From: Haloplanus salinarum
GTDB lineage: Archaea > Halobacteriota > Halobacteria > Halobacteriales > Haloferacaceae
Assembly (NCBI RefSeq): GCF_024498175.1
Contig: NZ_CP101823.1
Location: 2,108,001 to 2,172,000 of the forward strand
Direction of reading: 5' to 3'
Length of the DNA stretch: 64,000 bases
Made by a program: the position numbers and the translations under genes. The first letter of the stretch is position 1, and the number at the start of each line of letters is the position of its first letter. The notes below the pieces were generated by a model that had not been told where the DNA came from, searched no databases, and worked only from the letters and a program-made list of their open reading frames with translations. Positions 13,358 through 59,353 of this stretch are shown here, piece by piece.

Positions 13358-16195
13358 ATGGCAGATACGGAGTCGTCGCGGATGGACGCCTTCACCCACC
13401 TCGGCGATCGGGTACGGTCGGCGCTCTCCGAGCGCGGCTTCGCGACGCCGACGGAGCCACAGCGGCGGGCGATCCCGCCGCTGGCGGCCGGCGAGAACGC
13501 GCTTGTCCTCGCGCCGACGGGGACGGGGAAGACCGAGACGGCGATGCTGCCGGTGTTCGACTCGATCCACCGCGCCGAGGACCGGTTCGGGATCTCGGCG
13601 CTCTACATCACGCCGCTGCGCGCGCTCAACCGCGACATGCGCGAGCGGCTGGACTGGTGGGGCGAGTACCTCGACGTCGAGGTAGACGTCCGCCACGGCG
13701 ACACCACGCAGTACCGGCGGGGCAAGCAGGCCGACGACCCCCCGGACGTGCTGGTGACGACCCCCGAGACGCTGCAGGCGACCCTGACGGGCGAGAAACT
13801 TCGAACGGCCCTGTCCGATGTCGAACACGTCGTCGTCGACGAGGTGCACGAACTCGCGTCGTCGAAGCGGGGCGCGCAGTTGACGGTGGGCCTCGAACGC
13901 CTCCGCGACCTGGCCGGGCCGTTCCAGCGCATCGGCCTCTCGGCGACCGTCGGGTCGCCCGCGGAGGTCGGCCGGTTCCTGACCGGCGACCGCGACTGTG
14001 CGGTCGTCGAAGTCGAGGCGGGAACGAACGTCGAGTTCCGGGTGCGCGAACCGGAGGTGACCGACGAGGACGAGGCCCTGGCGGGGAAGCTGGCGACCGA
14101 CGTCGAAATCGCCAGCCACGTGCGGACGATCCGCGACGTCGTCGCGGCCCACGAGTCGACGCTGATATTCGTCAACACGCGCCAGACCGCGGAGGCGCTC
14201 GGTTCGCGGTTCAAGCGCCTGGAGGAGCCCATCGGCGTCCACCACGGATCGCTCTCGAAGGAGGCCCGGATCGAGGTGGAGGACGCGTTCAAACGGGGCG
14301 AGGTCGACGGCCTCGTCTGCACGTCGTCGATGGAACTCGGCATCGACGTGGGACGGGTCGATCACGTGATCCAGTACGGGAGCCCCCGGGAGGTGGCTCG
14401 CCTCCTCCAGCGGGTCGGCCGCGCGGGGCACCGCCGGGACGCCGTCTCGGAGGGAACGGTCGTCACGAGCCACCCCGACGACACGCTGGAGGCGCTGGCC
14501 ATCGCCCGCCGGGCGGTCGCGGGCGAGGTGGAGCCCGCGACCATCCACCACGGGAGCCTCGACGTGGTCGCCAACCAGACCGTCGGCCTCGTGATGGACC
14601 ACGGCGAGGTCGGCGCCCGCGAGGCCTACGAGACGCTGACGCGGGCGTATCCGTTCCGCTCGCTGTCGGAGGCGGCGTTCCGGGCGGTAGTGCGCGAACT
14701 GTCCTCGAACCGCCTCCTGTGGCTCGACGAGGACGCCGACCGCCTGGAGAAATCGGGGGGAACGTGGCGGTACTTCTACGCCAACCTGTCGATGATCCCC
14801 GACGAGGAGACCTACGAGGTGTACGACCTCTCCGCCCGGAAGACGGTCGGGACCCTCGACGAGCGGTTCGTCCTCAACTTCGCCGGGCCGGGCGAGACCT
14901 TCATCCAGCGCGGCGAGATGTGGCGGATCACCGAGGTGGACGAGGAGGAGGCACGCGTCGAGGTGACGCCCATCGAGGACCCCGGCGGCGAGGTGCCGTC
15001 CTGGACGGGCCAGGAGATTCCGGTGCCGGCGGCCGTCGCGGGCGAGGTGGGCGAGATGCGCGACGTGGCGACGACGCAGTTCGAACGCGGCGCCGACCGG
15101 CGGGCCGTCGCCCGCGAGTTCCTCCCGCGGTATCCGGGCGACGAGTACACCGTCCGCGAGGCGCTCGACCCCGTGGAGCGACAGGTGGAGGCGGGCGCCC
15201 CGACGCCCACGGCCGACCGCCTCGTCGTCGAGGGGCAGGGCCGAGGGGTCGTCCTCAACGCCCCCTTCGGCCACGAGGTGAACGAGACGCTCGGCCGGCT
15301 GTGTTCGGCGCTGATCGGTCAGAAGACCGGCTCGTCGGTGGGGATGGAGGTCGACCCCTACCGGATCGAACTGGAGGTGCCCGGGCGCACCGGGCCGTCC
15401 GACGTGGTGGAGGTCCTGGAGACGACGGATCCGGACCACGTGGAGGGCCTTCTGGAACTCGCCCTGAAGAACTCGGGGACGCTGAAGTTCACGCTGGCGC
15501 AGGTGGCCGCGAAGTTCGGCGCGCTCAAGCGGTATCAGGGGCAGGGTCGGTTCGGCGCCGACCGCCTGCTCGCGGCCCTGGAGGATACGCCGGTGTACGA
15601 CGAGGCGGTCCGGGAGGTGTTCCACACCGACCTCGCCGTCGACGAGGCAGCGGCCGTTCTAGAGGGAGTCCAGACGGGCGACATCGAGGTGACGACCGCC
15701 CGCGAACACACGCCCATCGGCACGGGCGGCCGGTCCAGCGGCCGGGAACTGCTCGTCCCCGAGAACGCCGACGCGAGCGTCGTCGAGACGCTGAAAGAGC
15801 GCATCCGGAACGACCGGGTGATCCTCGCCTGCCTCCACTGCACGGAGTGGACGCGGAAGACGAAGGTGCGGCGGGTGCCGGACCAGCCCCGGTGTCCGGA
15901 GTGCGAGTCGACCCGGATCGCCGCCCTGAATCCGTGGGACGACGACGTGGTCACGGCGGTGCGGGCAAAGGAGAAGGACGACGAGCAGGAGGGGATGACC
16001 CAGCGCGCCTACCGCTCGGCGAACTTAGTCCAGAGCCACGGCAAGCGGGCGGTGATCGCCATGGCCGCCCGCGGGGTCGGTCCGCACAACGCCGCCCGGA
16101 TCATCGCCAAACTCCGCGAGGACGAGGACGACTTCTATCGCGACATCCTCGAACAGGAGCGCCAGTACGCCCGGACGCAGTCGTTCTGGGACTAG
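13358..16195 (+). CDS. lhr: Lhr-type superfamily 2 DNA helicase
   Basis: The 945-residue protein has helicase motifs I (APTGTGKTE, about 52-60), II (VVDEVHEL), III (LSATV), and IV-VI (FVNTRQTAE, TSSMELGIDVGRVD, QRVGRAGHRRDA), followed by the Lhr winged-helix and C-terminal core region. A zinc-binding pair CLHC and CPEC lies near residues 827 and 846. Lhr helicases act in archaeal DNA repair. The ATG at 13358 is about 25-30 bases after a TTAATC element. The 3' end overlaps that of the convergent cdc48 gene by 4 bases. Haloarchaea usually carry two Lhr paralogs, and I cannot say which this is. Confidence 0.92.
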   Translation: MADTESSRMDAFTHLGDRVRSALSERGFATPTEPQRRAIPPLAAGENALVLAPTGTGKTETAMLPVFDSIHRAEDRFGISALYITPLRALNRDMRERLDWWGEYLDVEVDVRHGDTTQYRRGKQADDPPDVLVTTPETLQATLTGEKLRTALSDVEHVVVDEVHELASSKRGAQLTVGLERLRDLAGPFQRIGLSATVGSPAEVGRFLTGDRDCAVVEVEAGTNVEFRVREPEVTDEDEALAGKLATDVEIASHVRTIRDVVAAHESTLIFVNTRQTAEALGSRFKRLEEPIGVHHGSLSKEARIEVEDAFKRGEVDGLVCTSSMELGIDVGRVDHVIQYGSPREVARLLQRVGRAGHRRDAVSEGTVVTSHPDDTLEALAIARRAVAGEVEPATIHHGSLDVVANQTVGLVMDHGEVGAREAYETLTRAYPFRSLSEAAFRAVVRELSSNRLLWLDEDADRLEKSGGTWRYFYANLSMIPDEETYEVYDLSARKTVGTLDERFVLNFAGPGETFIQRGEMWRITEVDEEEARVEVTPIEDPGGEVPSWTGQEIPVPAAVAGEVGEMRDVATTQFERGADRRAVAREFLPRYPGDEYTVREALDPVERQVEAGAPTPTADRLVVEGQGRGVVLNAPFGHEVNETLGRLCSALIGQKTGSSVGMEVDPYRIELEVPGRTGPSDVVEVLETTDPDHVEGLLELALKNSGTLKFTLAQVAAKFGALKRYQGQGRFGADRLLAALEDTPVYDEAVREVFHTDLAVDEAAAVLEGVQTGDIEVTTAREHTPIGTGGRSSGRELLVPENADASVVETLKERIRNDRVILACLHCTEWTRKTKVRRVPDQPRCPECESTRIAALNPWDDDVVTAVRAKEKDDEQEGMTQRAYRSANLVQSHGKRAVIAMAARGVGPHNAARIIAKLREDEDDFYRDILEQERQYARTQSFWD

Positions 16196-57541: not shown

Positions 57542-58476
57542 TCTGCTCTGTTGAATAGATGCTGAGCCACGGTTACAGCGGCTCACACAGTGATTCTATG
57601 TTGATGATGGCGAACATCAGGACAATTTCACGAAACTGGCGATACCAGCCGAGCGCTCGCACGGCGTCGCCGAGCGAGCGCTTGGCTGTTGAGTACGACG
57701 TTTCGGCCATCCAGCGCTGAGAGTAGCCGTTTGCCCGGTTGAGCGCGTTGTTCAGGGCTGATTTCGGTGATGATCCACGATAGTGAACAAGATACTCAAG
57801 GTCATACGCGGCGATCTCGTACTCGGTGTGCCAGTCTTGGAAGCCGTTGTCGGCAGCGACGGACTGCAGGTCGTCCGCGTTTCGGCGGACGACCGGCGGT
57901 CCGGTCTTCGTATCGTGCTTCCACCGTGCTGTGATGTGAACGTCAAGAACCGCAAGCGATTCCACATCAGTTAATGTCGTCACTTTCAGCGTCTGTACGG
58001 TGCTTCCCGATCGCTGGCGGAAGTACGAGGAAGCACGACGACGGTCGAAGAACGTGCTGTCGAGAGCGGCGTGACCAGACTGCGGGTGCTGCTGCGCAGA
58101 AACGCGCAGCAGCGCCCGCCAGACCCACATTTTCAGCCGGTCAAAAGATTTGTAGATCGTGCTGTAATCCGGCAGGTCGTCCCGATCTAGGCCGAGGGCG
58201 TCACGAACCTCAGTCAAGTACTTCAACCGATTCGGCGTTTCACGGTAGCTGTGGCCTTCTTCGAGCCGAAAGCAGTGCAGAACAACGTGGACCCAGCGGG
58301 CGAACCCGCCGCTGGCGGGCTCGCCCGCGTGCTTCCCCAACGCTTGTTTAGCTAGGTCACGACACTGCTCAACGAAGTCGAGGAGGTCGACTTCCATAGG
58401 CAAGAATCGAATTCCTCGTCTTCATCCTTCTAAACCCGTGATATCGGCTGAATAGATCGCTCTTCAACAGAGCAGA
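57542..58476 (-). mobile_element. IS5-type insertion sequence, 935 bp
   Basis: Perfect 14-base terminal inverted repeats, TCTGCTCTGTTGAA at 57542-57555 and its reverse complement at 58463-58476, enclose one transposase gene. Flanking bases show no target duplication, consistent with a later adjacent deletion. Confidence 0.88.
57573..58397 (-). CDS. IS5-family transposase
   Basis: The 274-residue protein has DDE elements in ALDSTFFDR (Asp), VAADNGFQD (Asp) and AETSYSTAKRSLG (Glu), as in haloarchaeal ISH-type IS5 elements. The ATG at 58397 is chosen over a TTG 6 bases earlier. It appears intact. Confidence 0.88.
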   Translation of the reverse strand: MEVDLLDFVEQCRDLAKQALGKHAGEPASGGFARWVHVVLHCFRLEEGHSYRETPNRLKYLTEVRDALGLDRDDLPDYSTIYKSFDRLKMWVWRALLRVSAQQHPQSGHAALDSTFFDRRRASSYFRQRSGSTVQTLKVTTLTDVESLAVLDVHITARWKHDTKTGPPVVRRNADDLQSVAADNGFQDWHTEYEIAAYDLEYLVHYRGSSPKSALNNALNRANGYSQRWMAETSYSTAKRSLGDAVRALGWYRQFREIVLMFAIINIESLCEPL

Positions 58477-58584
58477 ATATTTGAACGCGTTACTGCTGCC
58501 CCTCACAACAGGAACGTCGGCACGACTGGCTGATCGCCTCCAAAGCGCCCGCTGCCTACTGCAATAACGCTCTAGGCCCCAAAC

Positions 58585-59119
58585 GAGGGTGTCATAGAAG
58601 GATTCACAAGATGTTGTTTCCACTCAAATCCCCTGTGAATTAGCCGATACGTGAGTATACGAACGTACCGTCCACCTACGAAGACTCGGGATTTTCCAAG
58701 TGATAGAGCAGTTCGTAGTCACCGACATTTTCTCCGCTTTCGAGCACATCAGACAGTACCTGCTTGTGTTCTTGATCGATGTCGTGCGATGAGTCCTCGA
58801 ACGATTCATACACCTGTTCGATGCTGTCCGCTTTCATATAGTAAATCAAAAAGTCGCTCTCCTCCGTATGTTCGATAAACGCAGTCTCCGAATGCATTCC
58901 CTCGCTCTTGAGTGTTTCAACCGCCTCTGCTTCTCTCTCGGTGATTTCCTCCATCCATTCCCTGAGCCGCTCCGTCTTCCCCTTCTCTATTTTTTGCTTC
59001 GCCAGCACTATTTCAGCCATATCTCGAAATGATATGTTGGAAGATTAGTTCTATCGTCTGTCTCTACCGATAGCTCGGACTCGAAACCGTCGGTGTGTGA
59101 ACTCTTCTATGACACCCTC
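58585..59119. mobile_element. 535-bp mobile unit with TIRs and target duplication, cargo gene inside
   Basis: 24-base inverted ends (GAGGGTGTCATAGAAG perfect, then 6 of 8 matching) at 58585-58608 and 59096-59119 are flanked by a perfect 7-base direct repeat CCCAAAC (58578-58584 and 59120-59126). No transposase is inside; the only gene is at 58676-59020. It was therefore moved by a transposase supplied in trans. Confidence 0.85.
58676..59020 (-). CDS. DUF6176-like small protein, cargo of the mobile unit
   Basis: The 114-residue protein (VLAKQKIEKGKTERLREWMEE, then AFIEHTEESDFLIYYMKADS) fits the dimeric ferredoxin-like DUF6176 pattern. Function unknown; homologs are common in haloarchaea. Its ATG at 59020 and stop lie wholly between the terminal repeats, so it travels with the element. 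Confidence 0.75.
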   Translation of the reverse strand: MAEIVLAKQKIEKGKTERLREWMEEITEREAEAVETLKSEGMHSETAFIEHTEESDFLIYYMKADSIEQVYESFEDSSHDIDQEHKQVLSDVLESGENVGDYELLYHLENPESS

Positions 59120-59353
59120 CCCAAACGCGTAAATTATCAACTGTAGTGTATTGTGTATGGGCTTAGTGAGGGGCAGTTCCTACTCTGCGAAGTAACTGAT
59201 AATCCGGGTCCCGGGTGTCTCCCCACGGGATTATAATCGACCACAATCACATCCTGTCCCTCTGAGGTGCTCGATCGGCTCTGCCCTTTTGAGTTCTTCC
59301 CCATCCGTTCTGTCGCTCTAATCGATTTTTTGACTCTCCCTACCGCGTCACGC

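Follow-up and report, generated by a model that had tools for sequence, protein, structure and literature searches.

Mobile insertion cassettes (MICs), such as MIC231 of Bacillus cereus and the qnrD mic of Proteeae, have been described in bacteria, where they are moved in trans by the parent insertion sequence (IS) (PMC3913671). The IS231-MIC231 elements were called modular by De Palmenaer 2004 (this work and Chen 1999 as cited in PMC2266710). In haloarchaea, the closest described elements are ISH2 of Halobacterium and HqIRS32 of Haloquadratum, which are ~520-530 bp long, lack a transposase, carry a small ORF and are moved in trans by ISH8 (PMC3119063, PMC10264941). MITEs are usually regarded as empty shells; an exception was noted in HqIRS32, which alone among the MITEs of its species has an ORF that probably encodes a protein (PMC3119063). 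Another element, MITEHsal2 of Halobacterium salinarum 91-R6, is listed as a MITE of 411-413 bp with 6-8-bp duplications (PMC10264941). Transporter ISs (tIS) have passenger genes between IS ends and keep their own transposase (PMC3129680). In the open-access papers that we searched for archaeal MICs or cargo-bearing haloarchaeal MITEs, we found just ISH2/HqIRS32 and general reviews.

Here we describe a haloarchaeal element that, judged by its sequence, is a MIC in kind. Like the bacterial MICs, it has the inverted repeats of a known IS (its 15-bp ends are those of ISH11-family ISs of the same genome), a passenger gene (DUF6176 only) in place of the transposase, and a target duplication. On the other hand, this element and its relatives differ from MIC231 and the qnrD mic in the archaeal host, in the ISH11 (IS5 family) ends, in the smaller size (300-1,300 bp), in the many unrelated single genes that they carry, and in that one payload may be found in the shells of unrelated IS families. 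With ISH2/HqIRS32 they share the haloarchaeal host, the absence of a transposase and the small ORF (that of ISH2 is homologous to an RHH cargo of ISH11 shells); however, ISH2/HqIRS32 have other ends, a 10-bp duplication and one fixed cargo. A passenger gene between IS ends is also seen in tIS, but a tIS assignment is ruled out by the missing transposase. By analogy only, small single genes that can replace one another within a shared frame recall integron gene cassettes. The latter depend on attC sites and a tyrosine recombinase, while the ends described here are transposon ends for a DDE transposase. Neither the scale of the ISH11-based group in archaea nor the change of shell by payloads appears to have been described.

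Results

The cassette and its insertion site

The window, i.e. the whole 64-kb stretch of DNA that was analysed, corresponds to G000:C1:2108001-2172000 within a 3.45-Mb haloarchaeal genome. The features of the cassette, in window coordinates, are as follows.

58578..58584, plus strand: left copy of the target site duplication, CCCAAAC (a single copy at the empty site)
58585..59119, no strand: whole non-autonomous cassette, 535 bp, defined by its ends, the target duplication and the empty site
58585..58608, plus strand: left terminal inverted repeat, 24 nt, GAGGGTGTCATAGAAGGATTCACA
58676..59020, minus strand: cargo gene, 114 aa, DUF6176 (Pfam PF19673), with a predicted ferredoxin-like/dimeric alpha-beta-barrel fold (rhamnose mutarotase/ABM type)
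59096..59119, minus strand: right terminal inverted repeat, 24 nt, GAGGGTGTCATAGAAGAGTTCACA
59120..59126, plus strand: right copy of the target site duplication, CCCAAAC, a perfect match to the left copy

The initial annotation had proposed 24-base terminal repeats and a perfect 7-base duplication, and both hold: the two ends, 487 bp apart, are paired at 22 of 24 positions (92% complementary), and CCCAAAC flanks them on both sides. Since moving the boundary of the element by one base extends the direct repeat to 9 bp (CCCCAAACG), 7 bp is the conservative reading. The bases inward of the left repeat are AGATGTTGTTTCCACT, an end of the class TTCACAAGGTRTTGNTTTCA that is common to other cassettes. 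Inward of the right repeat is CACC, as in the ends of autonomous ISH11-type ISs.

The 15-mer AGGGTGTCATAGAAG with zero mismatches has two sites in the window, and both are cassette ends. We observed scores of 37.9 and 39.5 for these ends under a 24-position end model, compared to at most 11 in the rest of the window; in the shuffled window (5 x 64 kb, both strands) one match scored above 11 and none above 20. The joined flanks align unbroken (85 bp, 87%) to a site at G000:C1 ~2,172,5xx, within a related intergenic repeat 5.4 kb downstream of the cassette, where the duplicated bases occur once. Therefore, the 535 bp together with one copy of the duplication are inserted DNA. The empty site used here is paralogous and comes from the same genome, as no locus homologous to the insertion site was detected in the 11 other genomes of the genus. 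Given the end-model scores, the target duplication and the empty site, we rejected a chance repeat or a regulatory palindrome as an explanation. The genome has one full copy of the cassette.

A complete-looking IS5-family IS lies at 57543-58475, 109 bp to the left of the cassette, with a 276-aa transposase on the minus strand and ends CTGCTCTGTTGAA. The core of these ends, CTCTGTTGAA, is also that of the second DUF6176-carrying shell type, found in Halorubrum.

The cargo gene

The single non-transposase gene of 114 codons had been called DUF6176-like, and the Pfam profile agrees: the protein matched PF19673 with E 4e-30 and 104.3 bits (cut-off 27) over profile positions 2-108 of 109. No other gene, and no transposase ORF, is present in 58585-59119, which rules out an autonomous ISH11-family (IS5) IS.

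A search of the collection with the single DUF6176 sequence gave zero matches, while the alignment-based search found 16 loci. The majority of the homologues have no such transposon ends. Two homologues, L048 and L070, do have ISH11-type ends, and they are located in unrelated surroundings; we did not see orthologues that keep these repeats at a fixed, non-mobile locus, the finding named beforehand as the one that would speak against a mobile element. For the window gene and L048, the closest two cassette-borne copies, pN was 0.145 and pS was 0.73, a ratio to be taken as merely indicative, since synonymous sites of this pair are near saturation. Across families, too, the homologues are conserved, and their pN is much lower than their pS. 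Among the RHH cassettes described below, copies from different genomes had pS of 0.39-0.41 and pN of 0.05 (dN/dS ~0.1). The earlier suggestion of selection for the product of the cargo was thus right in direction, the selection being purifying.

These data bear on the reading of the element as a plain MITE, an internally deleted ISH11 with an incidental ORF. The size, the ends and the absent transposase fit it. However, the ORF is a DUF6176 gene by its profile match, with homologues conserved as described above; the interior has no ISH11 sequence past the ends; and the same kind of shell holds 28 different cargo groups. We consider this reading highly improbable, and a MITE in the strict sense is ruled out, as the element is coding and its interior is not derived from ISH11.

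AlphaFold2 modelled the DUF6176 protein with pLDDT 46 without an alignment and 85.8 with the alignment of 16 homologues. The best PDB matches of the model were the rhamnose mutarotase RhaU (TM 0.62, E 1.4e-3), YgiN and proteins resembling antibiotic-biosynthesis monooxygenases, which all belong to the dimeric alpha-beta-barrel class; at E 1e-3 or weaker such matches indicate a fold and do not assign a function. The model suggests a small enzyme or a ligand-binding protein rather than a protein acting on DNA. A PADLOC search gave no match to a known defence protein, and we found no mention of DUF6176 in the open-access papers searched.

As the sole gene of the element, DUF6176 might be a helper or regulator of transposition rather than a cargo, and a regulatory effect on transposition is conceivable for the RHH protein of sister cassettes. 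Against this stand the lack of transposon ends at most DUF6176 loci, the presence of the gene in two unrelated shells, the modelled fold, which is enzyme-like and not DNA-binding, and the unrelated genes in sister cassettes. A helper role thus has very little to recommend it, and we treat the gene as cargo.

The probable autonomous partner

An IS with the same ends that could mobilise the cassette had been named as something to look for, and the same genome contains two: ISH11-family ISs of 1,069 bp, with 15-bp ends identical to those of the cassette, each encoding a 330-aa DDE_Tnp_1 transposase. The one used as a query was 91.5% identical in DNA over its full length to ISH11 of Halobacterium pNRC100, ~90% to ISHma6 and 89% to ISNpe17. 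Copies of ISH11 in Halobacterium have target duplications of 6, 8 and 9 bp (PMC10264941), the same spread as the 6-11 bp observed here. We also searched for an autonomous IS with the asymmetric end TTCACAAGGTRTTGNTTTCA; the two-ended elements examined at those loci were cassettes without an ISH11-type transposase, from which we infer that the partner of this end class is ISH11-type.

Elements with the same ends across the order

The pattern GAGGGTGTCATAGAASNNTTC (at most 1 mismatch) was present in 142 of 293 genomes of the order, compared to 0 in each of the 293 genomes for the reversed-pattern control. When ends were paired within the fetched loci, 64 candidate elements resulted; this sample is not unbiased, as it started from the window and from end matches with few mismatches. 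A target duplication was found in 31 of the 64; with permuted flanks the rate was 0.12%. Six of the 31 duplication-supported elements have a transposase and 25 have none, and nearly all of these 25 carry one small gene or a gene pair.

The cargo of the duplication-supported elements that passed the Pfam threshold includes DUF6176, two different GNATs, DUF3592, DUF6653, RHH_1, DUF7344 and a DUF433+DUF5615 pair, while HD_3 and MazG-like cargo was found in elements for which we could detect no duplication. Other cargo proteins, which have no family, are lipoprotein-like or membrane proteins. Several further cargo ORFs had no family match (e.g. those of L024, L116 and L159) and may not be genes. 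With respect to the two end classes, the cargo genes are in either orientation. The initial annotation had described one odd element with a fixed cargo gene; the element is real, but it is neither alone nor fixed in its content, as it is a member of a group that spans the order, with many different and interchangeable cargoes.

Two-gene cassettes are also seen. For example, a 791-bp ISH11-shell cassette (L156 1495-2285, genome G222) has the DUF433/DUF5615 pair, which looks like a toxin-antitoxin module, and a 1,329-bp ISH11-shell element (L117 1527-2855, G248) has DUF7344 with a second small gene.

Shells shared by elements with different payloads

In a comparison of 34 elements, whose cargo falls into 28 unrelated groups, we found that elements with different cargo share shells of 60-85 nt, in several cases at both ends (L024/L093/L107 and L089/L136). 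Similarity of the cassettes to the full IS, on the other hand, ends at 18-35 nt, so the shells are not recent truncations of ISH11. In the window element, just the left end is shared with a cassette of other cargo (39 nt, 92%, with L021).

One pair of loci, L202/L201, from the genomes G306 and G207, shows a swap of cargo in place. The upstream 4.2 kb are 95.7% identical, the downstream 1.27 kb are 98.8% identical, and the left and right shells are nearly identical over 69-77 bp; between them one genome has a GNAT and the other has an HD-domain gene in its place. At this locus G207 lacks 155 bp adjacent to the element, and with them the second copy of the duplication.

A simple new capture, in which two ISH11 copies flanking a host DUF6176 gene lost their interiors by deletion, once and in this lineage, fits with most DUF6176 homologues being outside such elements. 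Composite formation followed by internal deletion is, moreover, an established route to MICs and MITEs. Yet similarity to the IS ends well short of the 60-85 nt that cassettes of different cargo share, and ISH11 shells surround two more DUF6176 copies (L048, L070), with IS5-type shells around others. We therefore regard a single new capture as unlikely.

Payloads found in two unrelated shells

Three payloads (DUF6176, DUF3592 and RHH) were each found in two unrelated transposon shells.

For DUF6176, L070 (ISH11 shell) and L069 (IS5-type shell) are 87% identical over ~450 bp; the common part includes the gene, ~97 bp upstream and a few bases beyond the stop, and the ends are unrelated. The shell of L069 (Halorubrum tebenquichense, also L179) starts with TGGCTCTGTTGAAACACT. 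Another DUF6176 gene is held by a 489-bp element with ends TGGCTCTGTTGAAATCCT, present in G209 and in Halorubrum lacusprofundi pR1SE2, and probably also on the DL31 plasmid. Genome G209 has 45 matches to the TGGCTCTGTTGAAATCCT ends and a 1,195-bp IS between such ends with a DDE_Tnp_1 transposase. In a tree of 23 DUF6176 homologues, in which the inner branches are mostly weak, L070 and L069 grouped together (100/100) apart from the window gene, and L063 (IS5-type) was placed elsewhere; given these placements, the entry of DUF6176 into such elements probably happened more than once. Bacterial MAG contigs also have homologues (L181, a Pyrinomonadaceae MAG, 44%; L182, a Chlamydiae MAG, 34%).

For DUF3592, L236 (ISH11 shell, 8-bp duplication) and L238/L239 (adjoining IS5-type shell) are 95% identical over ~595 bp starting ~65 nt before the start codon, and the different shells give way to the payload at almost the same base. 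The protein is 94-97% identical across genomes of three families, compared to less than 45% for other DUF3592 homologues, with the exception of two near relatives at 82-83%. The genome of the window has a second ISH11-type cassette relic, with DUF3592 and one intact ISH11 end (L203, G000:C1:1262000-1265500), which is 93% identical over 729 bp to the cassette L241 (G043) of another family. The loci L240 and L241 are 98% identical over more than 2 kb despite their different genera.

For RHH, ~20 loci have paired ISH11-type ends, mostly 405 bp long and many with 6-11-bp duplications, while at three loci the gene is between ISH2-type ends ~500 bp apart; ISH2 of pNRC100 itself encodes the homologue. 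MITEHsal2 is very likely the 405-bp RHH cassette at pHSAL2 14778-15182, to judge by its size and the shared strain. Palindromes GTGCAC...GTGCAC on both sides of the RHH gene, conserved between L032 1501-1905 (ISH11 shell) and L204 (ISH2 of pNRC100), look like operators of this gene.

Proposed mechanism

Taking the comparisons of genomes together, we consider it very probable that the window element is a MIC with ISH11-type ends, moved in trans by the ISH11 transposase, with shell and payload as separate modules and with the gene kept by selection. The transposase would recognise the terminal repeat and subterminal bases at both ends, and would excise or copy the unit; reinsertion would make a 6-11-bp duplication, with the gene as a passenger. 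Presumably it could act on the window copy today. The shell module would be ~60-85 bp of cis-acting sequence per end, and the payload module would be the gene with its own upstream region, likely transcribed from its own promoter. The DUF6176 gene would have no part in transposition and would persist because its product is selected.

Payloads would be replaced within shells that persist, and the same payload might move to the shell of an unrelated IS family. Such swaps may involve nested or adjacent insertion and deletion mediated by short repeats, or recombination within shells. Insertion of elements into or beside other elements and deletion at short repeats have been described for Haloquadratum (PMC3119063). 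The simplest route would be an element inserting into or beside another one, which is frequent in haloarchaea, and then a short-repeat deletion.

We also considered a wider interpretation, a transposon-based gene-cassette economy of haloarchaea, in which small payload genes with their promoters pass between unrelated shells (ISH11, the CTCTGTTGAA IS5 type, ISH8/ISH2) by recurrent exchange at a fixed inner shell edge. The inner edge of IS5-type shells is ~66 nt from the terminus in at least 9 different interiors, and a dedicated mechanism of payload exchange is possible; however, the constant edge could be merely how far the cis-acting end extends. We hold this interpretation as speculative and rather doubtful. 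If true, haloarchaea would have an equivalent of integron cassettes in function, based on DDE transposons.

Should cassettes with one complete gene prove common among haloarchaea, with payloads that switch shells, small host-type genes (enzymes and regulators, and a pair that resembles a toxin-antitoxin module) would have a way to spread between genera and between families that does not require transfers of plasmid size. The cassettes also give a computable test of which small unknown genes are selected cargo, and ISH11 with the cassette makes a defined pair for genetics.

Other elements

An IS5-type shell end, with the layout as in Halorubrum, is present at position 490 of L013 (minus strand), ~1.26 Mb in the genome of the window (G000). 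At L057 1154-1959 (G235) a DUF6176 gene lies between perfect 20-nt inverted repeats CTACCACCTTTTACGACGGT, without a target duplication. Finally, two 464-bp elements of G209 (L196 and L197) have IS5-type ends and the same gene of a 69-aa membrane protein, one of them with the duplication TTTCGT.
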